Shown here: positions 18,120 to 27,279 of the stretch, piece after piece
Numbering within the stretch: the first letter of the stretch is position 1
How the letters are laid out: the number at the start of each line of letters is the position of its first letter
Virus record (IMG/VR): IMGVR_UViG_3300035670_001061
Span: 1 to 27,279 of that record
Strand: one strand, 5' to 3'
Origin: a virus
Length of the DNA stretch: 27,279 nucleotides
Translations under genes and position numbers: made by a program
Notes under the pieces: generated by a model
What the model saw: the letters and a program-made list of their open reading frames with translations, nothing else
What the model was told of the DNA's origin: nothing
Databases searched by the model: none

Positions 18120-19172
18120 TCAGCTCGTCGGGATTGCTATCGCGGTTCGGCGCGATGAGGCATCAGACCGCAGGTTGTAATCTTCACTTCCTTCGGTAAG
18201 CGACGTATAACCTTGATTTGTGTTGCTCTGATCTTCGACGTTGGATGATGTCGGGCTACCTGAACCTGCCGTATAAGATGTTGACAGAGGAATGTTATAA
18301 TGCAAAGTTGCATTTTGGATGTTGTCACCGTCATTGTTCTCAAAGTAACAATACCCGGTTATCAACGGTTCTGATCCGGCATTGATTCCGATATCTCCGG
18401 CTCCCGATTGGTTTGTTACGCGACACCCGAAAACAAGCGGCGCGTTTAATAAGGTGCCAGCAGATATTAAGATCCCGTCATCACCATTATTGTCTACGAC
18501 ACAATTCATGATTCTGCCGGGATAAGCTGCTGTGCCGGGGTTAATACCATCATCAGTATTGTCATACGATAAGCATCCAAACATTAAACCATCTGTAAAG
18601 GTATAAAATCCAATTCCCGCATTGTCACGACTACAACAGAACAACATGGCGCATGCATACAACAACGAACTAAAGCCATGTAGCCCATTGCTATAGGCAA
18701 CACATCGGTAAAACAGCGTCCTGTCAAATCTGCCGGTAAACCCATATCGGCCGCATGTATTGGCACAACAATTAATGAACACGCATCCATCTGCCGTGTT
18801 CACAGAAGTATAGAAACCGTCATAACTTCCAGAAGCGGTATTCTTGACTTCAAGGTTTTCTACCCACCATAGATCGCTCCCATTCCAATCTATGCAATGG
18901 ATACCGTTGCCCCCAGCGTTAACGACATACCTTGTGCCGTCAACATCGCCCGAGGCATTACAGCCGATAAGCTTAATAAACCCGCCTGCGTTCGTTCCAG
19001 AACCAGCGACATCAAGCTCTGCCGCAATTGTTTCCGTGCCCCTTGCGTAAATAATATCGCCAGCAGACGGTGGCAGTGCGAAAATTGTTGATAAAGATGA
19101 TGCGGCTTTTGCCCACGTGTCATATGGTGCCGTTCTCGACCCGGCACTGGGGTCAACATAATAAGTAGACAT
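18120..19172 (-). CDS. Right-handed beta-helix protein in capsid accessory block
   Basis: A 350-residue protein, no signal peptide. It begins STYYVDPSAGSRTAPYDTWAKAASSLSTIFALPPSAGDIIYARG, the standard entry to pectate-lyase-like parallel beta-helices ('yYVdp..G......pw.t...A'). Residues ~70-290 show coil after coil of Asn/Cys/Gly stacks (GCVFINCCANTCGRYGF, RTLFYRCVAYSNGLHGF, IMNCVVDNNGDDGI). The many cysteines in the stacks are notable. The gene is AT-richer than its neighbours. Its ATG shares bases with the upstream stop (TAATG). Position in the head region, not next to the tail fibres, suggests a capsid-attached fibre or depolymerase; this is inference. Confidence 0.88.
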   Translation of the reverse strand: MSTYYVDPSAGSRTAPYDTWAKAASSLSTIFALPPSAGDIIYARGTETIAAELDVAGSGTNAGGFIKLIGCNASGDVDGTRYVVNAGGNGIHCIDWNGSDLWWVENLEVKNTASGSYDGFYTSVNTADGCVFINCCANTCGRYGFTGRFDRTLFYRCVAYSNGLHGFSSLLYACAMLFCCSRDNAGIGFYTFTDGLMFGCLSYDNTDDGINPGTAAYPGRIMNCVVDNNGDDGILISAGTLLNAPLVFGCRVTNQSGAGDIGINAGSEPLITGYCYFENNDGDNIQNATLHYNIPLSTSYTAGSGSPTSSNVEDQSNTNQGYTSLTEGSEDYNLRSDASSRRTAIAIPTS

Positions 19173-19748: not shown

Positions 19749-19985
19749 TTAAGCCCGCTTCCTCTGGTAGTTGCGCGAAGCATTCTCCGGTGCCTCTTTC
19801 ACCGCCGTTTCGACTGTGGCCTCGCGCACGAACTTTTTCATGCCGCCGACCACGCCGGCCTGCTCGAGCAGTCGGGCGTCTTCCTCGGTCACGATGATGC
19901 TGTCGCCCTGCCTGTAGGGCCGGCCGTCACGCTCCGGCCAGCTTATGCCGTTGAGCACCACGCCCTTGTAAAAAACGGTTCCCAT
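19749..19985 (-). CDS. Small basic phage protein, unknown
   Basis: A 78-residue protein starting at the ATG in a TGATG junction with the upstream gene; an extension to 20033 would only read that gene's end in another frame. The N-terminal half is a small beta unit (TVFYKGVVLNGISWPERDGRPYRQGDSIIVTEEDARLLEQAG) similar to short KOW/SH3-like modules in phage head proteins. The C-terminus is basic and unstructured (NYQRKRA). Function unknown. Confidence 0.8.
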   Translation of the reverse strand: MGTVFYKGVVLNGISWPERDGRPYRQGDSIIVTEEDARLLEQAGVVGGMKKFVREATVETAVKEAPENASRNYQRKRA

Positions 19986-20860
19986 CACGACCCCCTTTTC
20001 TGATACATCAGATCGTCTCCCAGGTTCGCCCAAATCTTTGCGATTTCGGATACCACCTGTTCGCCGCCGATGTATTGATTGATGGCCGCCTCGTCTGCCT
20101 TGTGGCGCTGCTCAAGCTGCATGCGTTTGATCTTCATGTCCTTCTTGACGCGCTCGATCTTCTCCCGCCACACATCCTGCTGTTTTTCTTCGAACCCGTA
20201 GATGAACCTGGTCTTGAGCAGGTCGGCCGCCGATGGGATGTAAACCCCGATGCCCATGCCGGCCGCTACGCCGAGCCAGAACTCGCACGAGGGCCGCTGG
20301 CTCTCGTACTCTGTGCCCACAGCCATGTCCACGCCGTAGACGTGAATCTCCTTGAACCCGAGGCAGATCGCCAGCACGATCTCATAGGTAATGCTGTTCG
20401 TGAGGTATCGGCAGATATCGTGCCTGATGCCCCGCGCGGCGAAGAAGTTGACCACGTCGTCCAGCGGATACGGGATCGACATCGGGATCAGGTTCGGCCA
20501 ATGCTTCTGCATGTAGACCGTGCACCCAACCTTGGCGATGCCCTGCATGTATTCGAGGATAGGCTGGCCCCGAAAATCCTCGGCGCCGCGCCGCACGAAT
20601 TTGCCGTTGCGCCTCGGGTCTTGCCATATGTTGTGGATTTCAAACCAGCGGTCGTAGTGCTGGCCCTTGAGCGGGATGCCGTAGAGGTTGTTTACTCCCC
20701 AAAACTCTGCGGTTTCATCGTCCCACGGAACAATGTCCTTGGTGCCTGCGCACCCGACGATGATGCATCGGTCCTTCTCTCGGATGGGGTATTGCAGAAC
20801 GATTTCGCCATCGGTGCCGTCTTCGAACTTTGCCGGTACGCTCTTTGCCTCGTGTTTCAT
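19985..20860 (-). CDS. Rossmann-like protein of phage glycosyltransferase/MptE-DUF115 type
   Basis: A 291-residue protein. The N-terminus has a Rossmann-like entry (DRCIIVGCAGTKDIVPWDDETAEFWGVNNLY) followed by HYDRWFEIHN. A later block reads TYEIVLAICLGFKEIHVYGVDMAVGTEYESQRPSCEFWLGVAAGMGI. The 'GFKEIhvyGvDm' strand resembles the GY.eI.l.G.D. motif of DUF115/MptE-like proteins and of bacterial CMP-sialic-acid transferases (GT42). The last ~75 residues are coiled coil (EKIERVKKDMKIKRMQLEQRHKADE). Together with CMP-sugar synthetase-like and FkbM genes upstream, a sugar-transfer role is plausible, but it could be a non-catalytic structural Rossmann protein. The coiled coil could tether it to the capsid or form oligomers. 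Confidence 0.85.
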   Translation of the reverse strand: MKHEAKSVPAKFEDGTDGEIVLQYPIREKDRCIIVGCAGTKDIVPWDDETAEFWGVNNLYGIPLKGQHYDRWFEIHNIWQDPRRNGKFVRRGAEDFRGQPILEYMQGIAKVGCTVYMQKHWPNLIPMSIPYPLDDVVNFFAARGIRHDICRYLTNSITYEIVLAICLGFKEIHVYGVDMAVGTEYESQRPSCEFWLGVAAGMGIGVYIPSAADLLKTRFIYGFEEKQQDVWREKIERVKKDMKIKRMQLEQRHKADEAAINQYIGGEQVVSEIAKIWANLGDDLMYQKRGS

Positions 20861-20930: not shown

Positions 20931-21731
20931 TTACTTGCTCGTGGACTGATTGATCGACTTGCTGTAAGTCACCGGGACCACAGGGCCGATCTCCTTTTGC
21001 CGCACCACATGCACCGTATACGGGTTGGCGTGCTCGGTGGAGTAAACGCCTACCGCAAGGTGCGTTTTGCCGTCGGCCATGAACTGCTGCTCAACACCAA
21101 TATGGGCGATGAACACGCCGCCGACCCCGATGCGCGAGCTGCCCGTTGTGCCAATGGCGAGCAGGTGCGTGCCGTCGGGATCCTTGGGAATGATGCGCGC
21201 CCATGCCCCGGCCATTGTGGCCGCCTGCCAATTGGCGGTAATGGCCGTCGAAGTGTTGTTCGTGCCGTTGAACATGGTGACGAATGCTTCCATGGCCACG
21301 GTGGCCGCTGCACCAGAGGCGCAGGTATACTGATTGCCGGCCGCCGTAGCGGTGGCGCAGGTGTAGGTGTAGCCGTTGATCACGAGATCGAGCGGAGCCG
21401 CGCTGGTCATCGTAGACCAGTTGATTCGGCCTTCCCTCATCTTCACGGCCGTGCCCACGCCGGTCGCAGAGTTCTTCCCGACGACAGCGGTAGCCGAGGA
21501 AATGCCCGTAGCACCGCCGCCGGTGGAATTGCTCGCCTGAATGACCCGGCAGGTGAACATCTGGAAGTCGGTCGCCCCAAGCGCCCCGGAAGCGGGCAGT
21601 TGCACCAGGCCGGACACATAGAAGTCTGCCCGGCGGTAGCCCTGCATGCCGTAGTACGGCGTGACCTGTTCTGCGGTCGCGCCGGTACTGAACATGGCGA
21701 TCTGGACGTTGTTTCGTTCCTGGAATTCCAT
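20931..21731 (-). CDS. Putative head accessory protein (paralogue of neighbouring 257-aa protein)
   Basis: A 266-residue protein with a very strong AAAGGGGGG ribosome site. N-terminal residues (FQERNNVQIAMFSTGATAEQVTPYYGMQGYRRADFYVSGLVQLPASG) are followed by a Thr/Ala/Gly-rich beta region. The middle contains LVINGYTYTCATATAAGNQYTCASGAAATVAMEAFVTMFNG, matching in layout the VTINGLSYGVATAY ... NLAAALASAINGN element of the preceding gene. The end (HTLLAIGTTGSSRIGVGGVFIAHIG-like segment, then YTVHVVRQKEIGPVVPV) is beta. The strong ribosome site and the hairpin after it suggest high expression, as for a decoration or minor capsid protein. The sequence gives no named family. Confidence 0.85.
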   Translation of the reverse strand: MEFQERNNVQIAMFSTGATAEQVTPYYGMQGYRRADFYVSGLVQLPASGALGATDFQMFTCRVIQASNSTGGGATGISSATAVVGKNSATGVGTAVKMREGRINWSTMTSAAPLDLVINGYTYTCATATAAGNQYTCASGAAATVAMEAFVTMFNGTNNTSTAITANWQAATMAGAWARIIPKDPDGTHLLAIGTTGSSRIGVGGVFIAHIGVEQQFMADGKTHLAVGVYSTEHANPYTVHVVRQKEIGPVVPVTYSKSINQSTSK

Positions 21732-21749: not shown

Positions 21750-22523
21750 TTAGGTCGTGCAGTTGACGACGGCGCCCGGGAAAGCATCCTTGCCGCTCGG
21801 GTATCGGACCATGCTGACGGCCCGCACCACGACGCCGGACGATTCCCCGCAGATGACGCCGATATACTTCGGCGTGTTGGTGGAGAGCTTGCTGCCCTGG
21901 ACGTTGATCTTGCCCTGCGCGTAGCCCGGATAAGCAACCATTGTCGCAGCTGCGGCCGTGGTCACGATGGTCAGGCCGGTGCCGAGGTCGTCGTCGGGCC
22001 GCAGGCTCACGATGGCGCTCGCGATGTCGTTCGCAATCGCCTCGTAATGCGGCAGCTTGGGATAGCTGTTGCTGTTGCCGTTGATGGCCGAGGCCAGGGC
22101 GGCCGCCAGGTTCGCGGCGTCGGCATAGGCCGTAGCCACTCCATAGCTCAAGCCGTTGATGGTCACGGACATCGCCGTAGTAAAGGCAGAGGTCATCTGC
22201 AGCATGCTCAAGGCCCCGCCGCGCACGACCGCCACGGTGGCCGGCCCGAGAGTCAGGGTGGCCCCGCTGATCGCGCTGCCCGCAGCGCTGGCCGCAGTCG
22301 CCTCGACCACGGTGAACTCGATGGCGTTGCCGGCGTCGGTCGCCGAAAGATCGGCAATCGTGCTCGCGGCAGACAGACCATCGGTGGAGACAAAGCCGGC
22401 CTGCACCAGGATGGAGAAGTCGCCGCCGCCGCCCTTGTCGAAGCGGATTTTCTGCGACGTGGACGCCACGGTGGCCTGGCCCAGGTGCAGAGGATCGATT
22501 CGGATGTTGTCGAGCGGATACAT
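21750..22523 (-). CDS. Putative head accessory/decoration protein following MCP
   Basis: A 257-residue protein behind AAAGGAGG, an excellent ribosome site. The first ~40 residues (NIRIDPLHLGQATVASTSQKIRFDKGGGGDFS) lead to Ala/Thr/Gly/Ser-rich beta sequence with repeated elements such as SGATLTLGPATVAVVRGG. Then comes VTINGLSYGVATAYADAANLAAALASAINGN, shared in pattern with the next gene. The C-terminal part (TPKYIGVICGESSGVVVRAVSMVRYPSGK) is beta. Immediate position after the MCP and strong initiation suggest an abundant virion protein such as capsid decoration. No family is claimed. Confidence 0.85.
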   Translation of the reverse strand: MYPLDNIRIDPLHLGQATVASTSQKIRFDKGGGGDFSILVQAGFVSTDGLSAASTIADLSATDAGNAIEFTVVEATAASAAGSAISGATLTLGPATVAVVRGGALSMLQMTSAFTTAMSVTINGLSYGVATAYADAANLAAALASAINGNSNSYPKLPHYEAIANDIASAIVSLRPDDDLGTGLTIVTTAAAATMVAYPGYAQGKINVQGSKLSTNTPKYIGVICGESSGVVVRAVSMVRYPSGKDAFPGAVVNCTT

Positions 22524-22548: not shown

Positions 22549-23868
22549 TTAGTTCAGGATCACGAACGGGCTCACCGTGTTGCTGGTCGAGCCCTCAAGA
22601 CCGATCGGTTCAGTCAGCCAGGGATGCGCGTCCACGTTCCAAACGATCTTGAACACGACTTTGTTGGACAGGAACAGGATATGTTCGCTGCTGGCGGCGA
22701 ACGGCCCGGAACCGTCCTTGATAAGGTAGTAGGCCAGGTTGACCAGGGAGAGGTCGCCCTTGGTCCCGAGGGCCGGCAGGCGGTCCGCGAAGACCACCGG
22801 GATGCCCAGCAGGGTAGAGGGCAGAGGGCCGGCGCCGGCGTTGTTCGCCGGACCGGAGCCGCCCAGCCAAATGGCGTGCGAGCCGGCATCGACCATCGCC
22901 GCAAGTTGCGGAATGACGGTCTGCGAAGCCAGCCACACATAGGAGCCGCCGCCGCGCATGAGCATGCGGGCCAGCATGTTGTAGACGTCGGCGAAGGCGA
23001 TTGCGTTCGCGCCGGCGCGGTTGTAGCTGATGGCCGCCGAAGTGTTCAGAAATCCGAGGGCCTTGTTGACGCCGTTGCCCCGCATGAAGTCGTAGTCTTC
23101 CTGCCCGACCACGGCCGCCGAAAGCTGCCGGGTCACGAAGGCCCCTGCCGCCGCCCAGTTGTTGAGCAGCTTGTTCGTTACCACGATGTAAGCGCTGATC
23201 TCCTTGGGCTCCAGGGAAACCTCACGCAGGCGGGCGGTAGTCTCGGTCATGGTCACGCCCTCACCGGTGTGCACCACGGTCACGCCGCCGTAGATGTTCT
23301 GCGCGCTGGTCTGGTCCAGGGCCGGGAAGGTCAGCTTGGCATCGGGCGGGCTCCCGGCGGGAATGACTGCCGCCCTCGGCCGGATGATGGCTTCCTGCGC
23401 CTGCACCTGCCGGATGGTCGCGTCGAACTGCTCGGGCAGAGCATAGCCGCCGGTGGCCCCGGTGCCCATCGTCTGCTCCCGCTGCTCCCGCAGCGCTTCC
23501 AGGCGGGCGTCGCGCACGCCGTCACTCTTGAGCCGGGCAAGGGCGTGCAGAAATTCGCCGACGTTGCGGAACTCCTTCTCCGGGTCCACGTCCTGAGTGT
23601 CGTCGCCCTTGTCCTTGGCCACCTTGATCACGGTGCGGGCGTTCCGGGCCTGGAGTTCTTTTTCCGCCAGCTTGCGGCGCCGCTCGGCATCGGCCTCGGC
23701 GTCAAGGATGTCCTTTTCGAGCTGGTCAACCTCGGCCTCGACCTTGCGATACTCGGCGTCTTCTTCGGCGGTCATGGCGCGTTTTTCGCCGTCGGCCTTG
23801 TCCAGCATGGCGCGGAGCTGCGCCAGCAGTTCGGCCTTTTTCCGTTTCATTTCAATGATCTTTTCCAT
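22549..23868 (-). CDS. HK97-fold major capsid protein
   Basis: A 439-residue protein with an AAAGGAG ribosome site. Residues 1-~80 are a long charged coiled coil (KAELLAQLRAMLDKAD ... EVDQLEKDILDAEADAERRRKLAEKELQ), the delta/scaffolding domain. The capsid domain starts near the TGATGGYALPEQFDATIRQV motif typical of the family. Beta strands and helices of the HK97 fold follow, including MTETTARLREVSLEPKEISAYIVVTNKLLNN, VVGQEDYDFMRGNGVNKALGFLN and the terminal FKIVWNVDAHPWLTEPIGLEGSTS. The upstream protease should remove the delta domain during maturation. Length agrees with the family with a delta domain (385-450). Confidence 0.96.
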   Translation of the reverse strand: MEKIIEMKRKKAELLAQLRAMLDKADGEKRAMTAEEDAEYRKVEAEVDQLEKDILDAEADAERRRKLAEKELQARNARTVIKVAKDKGDDTQDVDPEKEFRNVGEFLHALARLKSDGVRDARLEALREQREQTMGTGATGGYALPEQFDATIRQVQAQEAIIRPRAAVIPAGSPPDAKLTFPALDQTSAQNIYGGVTVVHTGEGVTMTETTARLREVSLEPKEISAYIVVTNKLLNNWAAAGAFVTRQLSAAVVGQEDYDFMRGNGVNKALGFLNTSAAISYNRAGANAIAFADVYNMLARMLMRGGGSYVWLASQTVIPQLAAMVDAGSHAIWLGGSGPANNAGAGPLPSTLLGIPVVFADRLPALGTKGDLSLVNLAYYLIKDGSGPFAASSEHILFLSNKVVFKIVWNVDAHPWLTEPIGLEGSTSNTVSPFVILN

Positions 23869-23870
23869 GT

Positions 23871-24506
23871 TCAGATTCTCCTTTTGAGAAGGTGTTTTCG
23901 CCGAGCGGATGTCTCGCTTGCGTTGCCCTCTTGCTCAACTGCCGGCGCGTGTTCCGATTCTTCCGGCACCGTACCGGTGCCGCTGACTCGCACAAATGCC
24001 TCGTGTGACCGCATGGCGATGTCGGTGCCCTCGTACGCCGGGAAAGTCACCGGCGAAACGTCCCAAAGCTTCGCCCTCTTGATCTTGCGCAGATCGAGCA
24101 TGCCCTTCTGCCCGCGCTGCCATTCGATGTCATCCGACGACTCGATCTCGAACCCGAATGACATCTGGCTGATGTCTCCGCGCTCGATGGAGACCGCCAG
24201 GTCTCGAGCAAATTGCGTGTCGGGCGGGTCGATCTCCACACGCAAGCCCTTTTCGTCTTCGGTCAGGGTCAGTGTCCCGGACTTGTTGCGGCCCATGATA
24301 TAGTCCGGGTTGTGGTTGAACAGGGCCCGCACATCATCCTGGCCGATGGATTCCGTGAAAGCACCCGGCAGAATCATCTCCCTGAACCAGCCGCCGATGT
24401 CGGTCTCCTGGTTGAAGACGGCGGCGTGTCCGACCATCTTGCGGTTGTCCTCGGACATCCTGATTTCACAGGGAAACGACCGGCTCTCTTTATTCTTGTT
24501 CGCCAT
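23871..24506 (-). CDS. HK97-type prohead protease
   Basis: A 211-residue serine protease of the HK97 gp4 family (PF04586), which processes the capsid delta domain and itself. Recognisable parts are GHAAVFNQETDIGGWFREMILPGAFTESI, the catalytic His65 in ALFNHNPDYIMGR and the Ser in GDISQMSFGF (Ser116). KLWDVSPVTFPAYEGTDIAMR completes the fold. The C-terminal ~45 residues are a Glu/Arg-rich tail that probably autoproteolyses. It overlaps the portal 3' end by 17 nt and ends 2 nt before the MCP ATG, the expected order. Confidence 0.96.
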   Translation of the reverse strand: MANKNKESRSFPCEIRMSEDNRKMVGHAAVFNQETDIGGWFREMILPGAFTESIGQDDVRALFNHNPDYIMGRNKSGTLTLTEDEKGLRVEIDPPDTQFARDLAVSIERGDISQMSFGFEIESSDDIEWQRGQKGMLDLRKIKRAKLWDVSPVTFPAYEGTDIAMRSHEAFVRVSGTGTVPEESEHAPAVEQEGNASETSARRKHLLKRRI

Positions 24507-25755
24507 TGTCTGGCTCCGATCCGGCCGGTTCCACCGGCTGAGTGCCGGCCTCGATGAAGTTCATGGGCTGAATGAAAATCTGCCCCTTGTCTTCGGGCAG
24601 CGGCGTCATGTCTTCGAGCGCCCGCACATCGTCCGCGCACAACCACCCGCCCTCGCGGCCGATCCGGTAGCCGTCCATGCGCGTCTTGAAATCGCCCCGC
24701 AGCAGGCCGTTGACGTTGATCTTGACGTAGTAGCCGCGCCGGCGCTCGCTCTCGGTCAATAGCGCCACGTTCGCAGACTGCTCGATGCGCGCCACAATCG
24801 GAGATATGGTGTGCACCACGAACGAAAGCATGAACTGCTCTGCGCTCGCATAGGTCGATACCTTGTCGGGCTCCTGCAGCAGAATCAGCGGCACTTTGAA
24901 CCAGCGGGCAATGTCGCGCACGGAGGCATTCGAAAGCTCAAGGAATTGTGCGTCCTTGTTGCTGATGCCGACGTTGTTCCACTTCATGCCCTCTTCCAGC
25001 ACCAGGGCCGTGTGCCGCCTTGACGATGCGTATTCCTGGATGCCGTCGCGCAGGTTGGCGCGGCCCTTCGGGCCGAGCGCTTTCGGCGACTCGATGATCG
25101 CTCCCGGGACCGCCTTGCGGCCGAAGAACTCGCCCTGGAAGTCTGCCAGGCCCTTTGCGAGCCCCATCGATTCGCGGGCGTTGCTGATGGTCGATAGCCC
25201 GGTCAGCCCTGTCGTGGTGAAACCCTTGACGTGCCAGATTTCGCTCGCGGAATACGTCCTGCGCGGATTACCGAGCTCGTCTTCGTTGCCGCCGCACTGA
25301 TAGTCGTACCAAACCTCGCCGTTTACGCGCTGCACCTGCATGTAGGTCGGGTTCATCGGGCAGAGACCGACGATCCGGCCGGAACCGTCCACTTCCTTGC
25401 GGCTGTACCAGTTGCCCCGCAGCTTAAGGTGCCCGATGCCCATCTCTCGGGCCTCGAAGCTCGTCTGCTGCGCGTTGAACTGGTCATGCAGGACGGAATA
25501 AAGCGGGTGCGCGTCTGCCGGCTTGTTGCCCCCGGTCGGGAGCCGCTTGCAGACCATCATCGGCAGCGAGGCTATCGTCTCGGCGAGGATCGTGACGCAG
25601 GCGTAGACGGATGAAATCTTGAGCGCGGTGTCCGGAGTGATATAGACGCCGGCAGCGGTGCCGTAGCCGGTCCGCTCCAGCGCGGTCCCGATCCACATAT
25701 TAGGATCGTTCACGCCTCCGGAACGCCCCTCACGAGCACCGAATAGAAATGACAT
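24490..25755 (-). CDS. Portal protein (HK97 family)
   Basis: A 421-residue protein from the ATG at 25755, which has GGGACGG 6 nt upstream. Other starts are ATG 25767 and TTG 25782. The family pattern (PF04860) is clear: VYACVTILAETIASLPMMVCKR near the start, HPLYSVLHDQFNAQQTSFEAREMGI, PMNPTYMQVQR, then EIWHVKGFT, GMKWNNVGISNKDAQFLELS and DIARWFKVPLILLQEPDKVSTY. Twelve copies should form the DNA channel at one capsid vertex and organise head assembly and packaging. The immediate upstream gene is a small HTH protein, not a terminase, which is unusual. Confidence 0.96.
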   Translation of the reverse strand: MSFLFGAREGRSGGVNDPNMWIGTALERTGYGTAAGVYITPDTALKISSVYACVTILAETIASLPMMVCKRLPTGGNKPADAHPLYSVLHDQFNAQQTSFEAREMGIGHLKLRGNWYSRKEVDGSGRIVGLCPMNPTYMQVQRVNGEVWYDYQCGGNEDELGNPRRTYSASEIWHVKGFTTTGLTGLSTISNARESMGLAKGLADFQGEFFGRKAVPGAIIESPKALGPKGRANLRDGIQEYASSRRHTALVLEEGMKWNNVGISNKDAQFLELSNASVRDIARWFKVPLILLQEPDKVSTYASAEQFMLSFVVHTISPIVARIEQSANVALLTESERRRGYYVKINVNGLLRGDFKTRMDGYRIGREGGWLCADDVRALEDMTPLPEDKGQIFIQPMNFIEAGTQPVEPAGSEPDNGEQE

Positions 25756-25766
25756 GAGCCGTCCCA

Positions 25767-25782
25767 TTGAGAGGATTCTCAA
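25767..25782. promoter_or_regulatory. Palindrome overlapping putative portal promoter/start (candidate operator)
   Basis: TTGAGA-ATCC-TCTCAA on the minus strand is a perfect 6-bp inverted repeat with a 4-nt spacer. It covers the possible -10 hexamer (25775-25780) and runs into the upstream alternative ATG of the portal gene. A dimeric DNA-binding protein such as the HTH product upstream could bind it; that link is inference. Confidence 0.4.
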
Positions 25783-25836: not shown

Positions 25837-26031
25837 CTACTTAGGGAACCGGACTGCTTTTACCGCGTCCTTTCTTATGCGCACCGAGCCCATGATCTTG
25901 AAGAAGCCGATCTTGCCCTGATAACACCAGGTGTAGATCGTCTTCGGGGCCACCTGCAGGATGTGCGCCGTCTCCTTGACGGTAAGGCTGTCCGTAGGGG
26001 TCAAGGATGTTGACGTTGCATCGTCTGTCAT
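25837..26031 (-). CDS. Small helix-turn-helix DNA-binding protein (excisionase/HTH_17-like)
   Basis: A 64-residue protein starting at the ATG with AAGGAG 5 nt upstream; the ATG lies 1 nt after the FkbM stop. The core SLTVKETAHILQVAPKTIYTWCYQGKIGFFKIMGSVRIRKDAVKAV is the winged HTH of the excisionase/MerR-like helix-turn-helix_17 family (PF12728). That pattern has 'LTvkEaA..L.vs..TIy.w...GkI...ki.g..ri.k.d...'. Such proteins act as excisionases or small regulators. It precedes the portal gene; a palindrome and possible promoter lie just downstream. It might regulate the late operon, act as excisionase, or be a small terminase-like recognition protein; evidence does not decide. Confidence 0.88.
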   Translation of the reverse strand: MTDDATSTSLTPTDSLTVKETAHILQVAPKTIYTWCYQGKIGFFKIMGSVRIRKDAVKAVRFPK

Positions 26032-26032
26032 T

Positions 26033-26737
26033 TCAACTCCTTGTGAAGACAATGTTCTCAACATTGATGCCCTCTTTCGCCCGGCGGTCGCGGCTGTGCG
26101 GCCCCATCATGTTGAAGCGGTTATTCGTAGAGAATCCATTGCTCTCGAGCGCCGCCGTTATCTCCCGACGGTCTTCAGGCGTCGTTTCCACCAGGACCGA
26201 CTTCAGCCGGCGGTCTCGCAAGAGGGATCCCATGCCGTATACCACCGCGAGCTCCTGGCCGTCGATGTCGATCTTCACGTGGTTCGGCGTTGGGAAGTCG
26301 AACGAGTAGACCACCAGCTCGTCGAGTCGCCTGGCGAATTCGATCCCCGACTCATCCTTCACGACCTGCCCGCCGGATGATCCTGTCTCTGCGCCCGCCG
26401 GCCGCGAGAAGACAGCGCGGCCGTACTGGTCGGAAATCATGTAGTTGTGCGCCTTGAGGCGGTCGCCGAAGCCGTTGAGCATGCCGTTGAGCACCAGCCT
26501 GCCGTAGTTGTGCTCGTCCGCCTCGAACGCCACTACTACGCTGTTCGGATGTTTCTTCGCGCAGTAGAGGCTATAAATGCCGATATTCGCCCCGACATCG
26601 AAGAACACGTCACCGTCGTCGAACCAGTCGATCCAGGCGATTGTCTCCGGCTCCTTGGTCGCCCAGGTGCGGGCGCGGTATCTTTCCATTTCGGTTTCAG
26701 TCATCATTTCAAACGGCGGGCGTGTCTCAACGTCCAT
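26033..26737 (-). CDS. FkbM family SAM-dependent methyltransferase
   Basis: A 234-residue protein from the ATG behind AAAGGGAGCC. Motif I, FFDVGANIGIYSLYCA (Asp47, Gly49, Asn51, Gly53), is the SAM-binding loop. VVAFEADEHNYGRLVLN (Glu72) is motif II. NHVKIDIDGQELAVVYGM is the FkbM signature (K-I-D-x-D/E-G-x-E). FkbM enzymes O-methylate sugars and natural products. The start overlaps the end of the CMP-sugar synthetase-like gene by 11 nt, so the pair is co-transcribed and probably acts on one glycan. Its substrate cannot be read from the sequence. Methylation of a phage or host surface sugar is the leading guess. Confidence 0.93.
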   Translation of the reverse strand: MDVETRPPFEMMTETEMERYRARTWATKEPETIAWIDWFDDGDVFFDVGANIGIYSLYCAKKHPNSVVVAFEADEHNYGRLVLNGMLNGFGDRLKAHNYMISDQYGRAVFSRPAGAETGSSGGQVVKDESGIEFARRLDELVVYSFDFPTPNHVKIDIDGQELAVVYGMGSLLRDRRLKSVLVETTPEDRREITAALESNGFSTNNRFNMMGPHSRDRRAKEGINVENIVFTRS

Positions 26738-27279
26738 AGTACGGCTCCCTTTCGATGAAGTTAGGTTCCTCGATCCCGGTCCGCACCATCAGCCGCGCCA
26801 TGTTCCAGTCGCGCATCGTGTTGATATCGAAGTCCTCGGGGTATGCCGTGAAATAGGGCTGATATCGCATCCTGGCCAATGGCGCCGATGTGCTATTGAG
26901 CGGCATACCGTGGCCGTAGGCGCTGACCCTGAACTCGATGCACCCATTCTGCACGTACAGCGGCGGGAACGTGGACGACTGGCAAAGATGATGCTCGCCG
27001 CACATGAACGGATACATGATCGGCCGTTCTTCGTCGCCGATCATCTTCCACATCTTCTCCGGGCGCTCTGTCACTTCCCGAACACTTTTCATGTGGCTCT
27101 CTTTGTCCCATGCCTCATAGGCATCCCGGATCGTGCGCGCTGTACGAAAAGGGTTCGTTGGCCGAAGGATTGCGTACCGCTCGCACGGAGCCACAGACAG
27201 GGCGTGATCGATCCATTCCTGGTCGGGCGAAACGGCCGTTGCGAATTCGACCGGCCGCCTGATGAATTTGGCCCCGTAG
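26727..27279 (-). CDS. CMP-sugar synthetase-like cytidylyltransferase, N-terminus cut by window edge
   Basis: The frame is open to the window edge and 183 residues are visible. YGAKFIRRPVEFATAVSPDQEWIDHAL and YAILRPTNPFRTARTIRDAYEAW match the acylneuraminate cytidylyltransferase family (PF02348), whose 'LqPTsPlR' block is diagnostic. Lower down are HMKSVREVTERPEKMWKM, QNGCIEFRVSA and a terminal DFDINTMRDWNMARLMV, matching the family's 'DID...D...A' end. The enzyme class activates an acidic or other sugar as CMP-sugar. The CTP-binding N-terminal motif is outside the window. Sugar identity is unknown; it might be sialic acid-like, KDO-like or another. Confidence 0.88.
   Translation of the reverse strand, partial: YGAKFIRRPVEFATAVSPDQEWIDHALSVAPCERYAILRPTNPFRTARTIRDAYEAWDKESHMKSVREVTERPEKMWKMIGDEERPIMYPFMCGEHHLCQSSTFPPLYVQNGCIEFRVSAYGHGMPLNSTSAPLARMRYQPYFTAYPEDFDINTMRDWNMARLMVRTGIEEPNFIEREPYYGR

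Follow-up and report, generated by a model that had tools for sequence, protein, structure and literature searches.

A NeuB/NeuA-type sugar gene cassette in the head operon of uncultured HK97-type phages: a candidate system for virion glycosylation

The window, that is, the whole stretch of DNA analyzed here, is a 27,279-base virus contig whose head and tail genes lie on the minus strand and whose end falls inside a neuA-like gene. This gene (26727..27278, minus strand; 183 codons, 5' open, cut by the contig edge) encodes the C-terminal part of a putative CMP-sugar synthetase and overlaps by 11 nt (26727-26737) a gene for an FkbM family methyltransferase (26033..26737, minus strand; 234 aa), the ATG of which is preceded by a ribosome-binding-like AAGGGAG. 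The first-pass annotation had described a CMP-activating enzyme and an FkbM methyltransferase with this overlap, transcribed with the head genes; both genes are present as described, and they lie on the same strand as the head genes and run into them. It had also placed the pair directly before the portal gene. The pair does precede the portal gene, but a gene for a small HTH_17 (excisionase/MerR-type) DNA-binding protein (25837..26064, minus strand; PF12728, 7.3e-12; 64-75 aa) intervenes, with its likely start at the ATG at 26031, ahead of which is AAGGAG. An HTH_17 protein occupies the same place between fkbM and portal in many relatives, with diverging sequence. The genes that follow encode a portal protein (24490..25782; PF04860, 1.1e-90), a prohead protease (23871..24506; PF04586, 2.3e-45), and an HK97-type major capsid protein (22549..23868; PF05065, 1.1e-30), all on the minus strand. 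Because the pair consists of same-strand, overlapping genes within the head operon, its late expression is favoured. Between the head and tail genes, a 350-aa protein (18120-19172), which looks by eye like a right-handed beta-helix, had no PHROG match.

By homology over the domain, the neuA-like gene is assigned to the NeuA superfamily (CTP_transf_3). A single-sequence phmmer search matched its product to 6ifd_A (E 1.4e-5, chain residues 82-239), and a profile made with eight relatives gave E-values of 1.4e-37 (6ifd_A) and 4.2e-37 (1eyr_A); the window gene alone matched no Pfam or PHROG model. FkbM scored above the Pfam threshold for PF05050 (35 bits, cut-off 22.7) and matched the PHROG methyltransferase family phrog_8156 (5e-18). 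Its relatives in viral contigs are 37-54% identical, and one of them (L052) scored 73 bits with TIGR01444. Single-sequence searches returned no close relatives of the window NeuA in viral contigs or in 50,697 phage records, and no FkbM relatives in the phage records.

Related viral contigs were fetched with the portal, FkbM and a 291-aa protein of the window (19985-20860) as queries. Gene order in these relatives is terminase small and large subunits, neuB-like synthase, short-chain dehydrogenase (SDR), neuA, fkbM, HTH, portal, protease and capsid, often with small ORFs between neuA and fkbM. The window pair is the downstream half of this phage-borne cassette of neuB-like synthase, SDR, neuA and fkbM, and since the same pair recurs before a homologous portal gene in other contigs, the neuA-fkbM pairing is not chance. 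The first-pass annotation had the pair occupying the place of the terminase genes and looked to sequence beyond the contig end for further sugar genes or terminase. The relatives hold both upstream of neuA, the sugar genes being neuB and SDR, and 21 of the 47 viral loci in which terminase and portal are both visible have neuB, neuA or both in the interval. Replacement of the terminase by sugar genes was accordingly rejected; in relatives, the terminase is displaced upstream, not lost.

The full neuB-sdr-neuA-fkbM set lay between terminase and portal in 17 of these 47 loci, which represent 16 contigs because L053 and L062 come from the same one; of these, 5 loci (6 when counted by contig) had been fetched with portal or GT-like queries and the others with NeuB. 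Two loci (L007 and L018) had fkbM without neu genes in this interval, one of them with Cst-fold copies (see below), and 24 had no cassette gene. Among 38 cellular-genome loci fetched with a capsid profile, none had any cassette gene between terminase and portal, and the gap between these genes was -3 to 626 bp. In the 19 closer relatives found with the portal query (L002-L020), eight of which show less than 1 kb ahead of the portal gene, fkbM preceded portal in 13 and neuA/neuB in 8. The 29 more distant portal loci (L021-L049) contained neuA, neuB or fkbM in no case and a Cst-fold gene in 2. Contigs with portal identities as low as about 40% still keep the cassette order.

A NeuB profile scan yielded 65 viral loci, 58 with new locus ids (L056-L113, where neuB is present by construction); 44 of the new loci had neuA and 16 had portal. 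In the 50,697 phage records, NeuB gave three matches, namely one Moritella bacterial contig and two uncultured viruses; the first, L161 (FPLJ01000048.1), belongs to Moritella viscosa, carries polysaccharide genes and is not a phage. A second set of viral contigs (L075-L079, L085-L093, L099 and L106), many of 40-49 kb, lacked the portal arrangement and had a shorter NeuB match separated from NeuA by a few hundred bases; it possibly represents independent acquisitions. HNH-like endonuclease genes, recognized by eye, were found within cassettes (L016 2424-3140, L017 4695-5411, L013 6010-6279 and L058 4425-5084), as if the region were an insertion site for mobile genes.

By profile match, the synthases of the relatives are assigned to the NeuB family (PF03102, 1.1e-59, plus an SAF domain; 202 and 27 bits in L052). 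NeuA relatives matched PF02348 (8.5e-19 to 4e-22), the full-length ones over the cut-off, and the SDR matched PF00106; neither NeuB nor NeuA of the relatives had a PHROG match. An IPARxGSxRxPxKN-like N-terminal motif, with variants, which we take to be the nucleotide-binding motif of NeuA-type cytidylyltransferases, was found in 8/8 full-length NeuA relatives and falls in the part missing from the window. All nine aligned NeuA sequences have D-x-N where 6ifd and 1eyr show D-x-D, presumably the metal motif of CMP-NeuAc synthetase and PseF. With this substitution, and with TIGR03584 scores of 101-110 bits in two relatives (cut-off 205.7), the enzymes stand apart from the named CMP-NeuAc synthetase/PseF. 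Likewise, two NeuB relatives scored 239-282 bits with TIGR03569 (cut-off 400), and 8/8 have Ser, Ala or Thr at the position of Arg314 of Nm NeuB, which sets them apart from N-acetylneuraminate synthase proper. In our reading of the alignment, they retain positions aligning with Nm Glu25, Lys129, His215 and Glu234. The accessible portion of PMC6795526 gives the roles of the Nm NeuB residues, with Arg314 contacting ManNAc and termed essential. NeuC was absent from all nine records searched, and therefore a host precursor or another route would be needed. Given the absence of NeuC (0/9), the loss of the ManNAc-contacting Arg from NeuB (8/8) and the D-x-N of NeuA (9/9), the sugar of the cassette is probably other than Neu5Ac; because of these changes in NeuB and NeuA, the chemistry may differ as well.

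Eight loci (one partial, L070) encode, near neuA, a transketolase-like fusion protein of about 420 aa. It follows neuA in L058 (6926-8188), L059 (6771-8033), L060 (10168-11418), L066 (5181-6482), L067 (3805-5067), L068 (2489-3748) and L071 (6486-7790). By eye, L094 has a 95-aa transketolase-like fragment following terminase. A Streptomyces plasmid (L159) carries relatives of NeuB (42%), SDR and transketolase consecutively, and the enzyme combination is therefore also found in cells; the ORFs beside this row, judged by eye, resemble P450 and NRPS genes. At E<=1e-15, no SDR relatives were found on plasmids.

Downstream of the capsid gene, the window encodes a candidate glycosyltransferase (19985..20860, minus strand; 291 aa), the model of which (pLDDT 83.4) has a predicted GT42 (CST-I) fold, i.e., a sialyltransferase (Cst/DUF115-like) fold. 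All nine PDB Foldseek matches at E<=0.001 were Cst-I/Cst-II, with low TM-scores (0.36-0.47). Structural comparison with GT42 Cst-I/Cst-II gave VIA Z-scores of 10.0-10.9 over 153-165 residues, the best being with Cst-II 1ro8_A (Z 10.9, 165 residues, 3.7 A). Matches were also obtained with a pterin pyrophosphokinase, HPPK of M. jannaschii (Z 10.0), and with a thiamin pyrophosphokinase (Z 9.4), so that the fold alone leaves the reaction undecided. The phage protein differs from Cst-I/Cst-II in having only about 15% identity and a long helix as its C-terminal part; Cst-II has a catalytic His. At the sequence level, the CST-I Pfam family PF06002 matched 2/17 family members weakly (best E 0.026), and the MptE/Maf/DUF115 family PF01973 matched 4/17 weakly (best E 0.027). 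A profile comparison by hhalign of the family with five cellular DUF115 proteins gave Prob 1.3, level with unrelated controls (1.3 and 0.2); sequence homology to Maf/DUF115 was thus not seen with these five proteins. Some cassettes have a second, shorter Cst-fold copy before portal. In a 540-aa protein of L082 (15249-16871), the Cst/DUF115-like domain is coupled with a part resembling, by eye, a family-2 glycosyltransferase, and Microcystis phage Mvi-Yong1342-1 (L160, 5902-6705) has a relative with 29% identity just before its terminase genes, annotated as 'type 11 methyltransferase'.

Two Ser/Thr-rich proteins are encoded between the capsid and Cst-fold genes of the window, g7 (21750..22523, minus strand; S+T 0.191), with relatives at the same place in L051-L053, and g8 (20931..21731, minus strand; S+T 0.192; model pLDDT 75). 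Both are candidate virion surface proteins and sugar acceptors. In 22 of the 23 viral loci having both flanking genes, this position is taken by one or two such Ser/Thr-rich proteins (about 260 aa), which align as one loose family, and an ORF after the capsid gene with S+T >=0.19 was found in 4/40 cellular loci. Their S+T is 0.19-0.28, versus means of 0.11-0.125 for capsid, portal and protease, in a comparison of 29 proteins that includes repeated contigs (L052/L056 and L053/L062) and the identical L015/L034 and leaves out one L055 ORF that we judged spurious. Within the window, the value for g7 and g8 (0.19) is unexceptional, as six other genes, several tail proteins among them, are richer (0.20-0.22). 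The g8 model is a beta-sandwich with an inserted domain resembling phage sheath/baseplate domains (8kee_C, VIA Z 11.5, 1.7 A over 90 residues; 9ndy_L, Foldseek E 7e-5). The model fits a virion surface protein; this inserted domain, which is common to sheath and baseplate proteins, leads both the Foldseek and VIA lists, and a capsid location is not proven thereby.

The Cst-fold gene after capsid co-occurs closely with the cassette. With both regions visible, it was present in 9/9 loci having neuA/neuB (8 contigs), in 2/7 other viral loci and in 0/35 cellular loci, 11 loci being set aside because the region after capsid was not visible. The two loci with a Cst-fold gene and without neuA/neuB were L055 and L007. 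Pairwise distances of neuA and neuB were correlated with each other (rho 0.75) and with those of portal (0.53 and 0.63, respectively); those of neuB were uncorrelated with terL (-0.08) and weakly correlated with capsid (0.27, p 0.06). L052 and L053, which duplicate the contigs of L056 and L062, were excluded from these correlations, as were stop-containing matches; the mutually similar L013/L083 and L016/L017 were kept. The agreement among the neuA, neuB and portal distances is the pattern as for a module inherited together with the phage.

Gene content, order, conservation and co-occurrence are direct observations, and from the enzyme families we infer the following steps. The NeuB-like enzyme would condense a host-made aldose with phosphoenolpyruvate into an alpha-keto-acid sugar of the nonulosonic-acid type, NeuA would couple it to CMP, and FkbM would O-methylate the sugar or the glycan. 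The Cst-fold protein may then transfer the sugar to Ser/Thr residues of the Ser/Thr-rich, putative virion proteins whose genes directly precede its own. From the gene families, it appears highly probable that the phages encode enzymes that make an alpha-keto-acid sugar and activate it with CMP. For these steps followed by transfer to virion proteins by the predicted Cst-fold enzyme, we lean only slightly in favour, on the grounds of position, fold and co-occurrence. The first-pass annotation had suggested that the phage makes or methylates a surface sugar for virion decoration, host surface change or masking; genes for synthesis, CMP activation and methylation do stand in the head operon of this phage lineage, and virion decoration is the reading that fits best.

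Alternatively, in the course of infection, the cassette could alter LPS, capsule or flagella on the host surface and so block superinfection or re-adsorption. The epaA/epaB genes of Acinetobacter prophages, which modify capsular pseudaminic acid according to the accessible part of PMC12053666, offer a parallel, and an integrase in 1/9 records suggests that some members may be temperate. We nevertheless consider an effect on the host surface unlikely, since the cassette is inside the head operon, on one strand and with overlapping genes, the candidate transferase gene comes after the capsid gene and a Ser/Thr-rich protein, and no flippase- or polymerase-like gene was seen by eye among the listed cassette ORFs. 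It is somewhat less likely still that the sugar nucleotide serves a non-glycan use, for example in hypermodifying DNA or nucleotides or in making a small metabolite, with the Cst-fold protein being pyrophosphokinase-like. The HPPK and thiamin pyrophosphokinase matches given above would agree with such a use, as would the row on the Streptomyces plasmid, which resembles a natural-product cluster; glycosyl transfer is instead favoured by the CMP-sugar synthetase and by the sialyltransferase-fold gene that so closely accompanies the set. Finally, a host junction at the contig edge, which the first-pass annotation had considered, or functionless decaying cargo is very improbable, because many contigs, including some with a portal only about 40% identical, share the order and none of the 38 cellular loci found with the capsid query does, and because most frames are open and motifs intact in relatives. 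Pointing the other way, the window stops within neuA, L006 has a decayed cassette (1843-2313) in which neuB and fkbM are intact, SDR and neuA are remnants and a MerR-like ORF lies between them, and reading frames seem disrupted in fkbM of L066, SDR of L016 and the pre-portal Cst-fold copy of L007.

Virion glycosylation by the cassette would resemble the glycosylation of flagellin with nonulosonic acids in bacteria (NeuB/PseI/LegI, NeuA/PseF/LegF and Maf), which likewise uses a NeuB-type synthase and NeuA-type CMP activation, and in which a transferase of Cst-like fold (predicted here) adjoins a Ser/Thr-rich surface protein (a candidate here). In the available portions of PMC11339370 and PMC3426422, Maf_flag10 (PF01973) is described as structurally Cst-II-like, and flagellin as O-glycosylated by Maf at Ser/Thr. 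The phage genes differ from the flagellin/Maf systems in being virus-encoded and in the capsid operon, with SDR and sometimes transketolase instead of NeuC (0/9), and in a transferase without a sequence-level match to the five cellular DUF115 proteins.

In Mycobacterium phages, both capsid and tail-tube proteins carry glycans, as far as the accessible part of PMC12619734 describes. Compared with virion glycosylation in such prokaryotic viruses (mycobacteriophages; HRPV-1), the virus itself here appears to encode both sugar synthesis and CMP activation. The epaA/epaB genes are also phage genes for nonulosonic-acid chemistry but, in the portion of PMC12053666 available to us, convert a sugar of the host capsule, whereas the present cassette combines a synthase and an activation enzyme in the head operon. 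The accessible part of PMC3877843 tabulates neuB and neuA among KEGG functions of viral metagenomes. PMC6918029 was considered as a precedent and discarded, as it concerns a different cytidylyltransferase. Thus, it was already known that viral metagenomes contain neuB/neuA, that phage virions can bear glycans and that some phage genes act on nonulosonic acids of the host; no description of a head-operon cassette with phage NeuB and NeuA was found in the open literature, most subscription papers being outside the search.

At the DNA level, the sign of such a cassette is strong. More tentatively, and short of what we would call probable, the data may reflect a widespread, uncultured lineage of HK97-type phages that brings its own protein O-glycosylation system of the CMP-nonulosonic-acid type, a parallel to that of flagellin/Maf, in which a non-Neu5Ac sugar made by NeuB would be CMP-activated, methylated and transferred by the Cst-fold enzyme to Ser/Thr-rich capsid decoration proteins, with all components encoded in the head operon. 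The conserved order provides a clear gene list for expression and testing. If the proposal is true, virion sugar chemistry would become genetically tractable via a route inside the structural operon, and there would be consequences for the charge and adsorption of the phages and for how lectins and immune systems recognize them.
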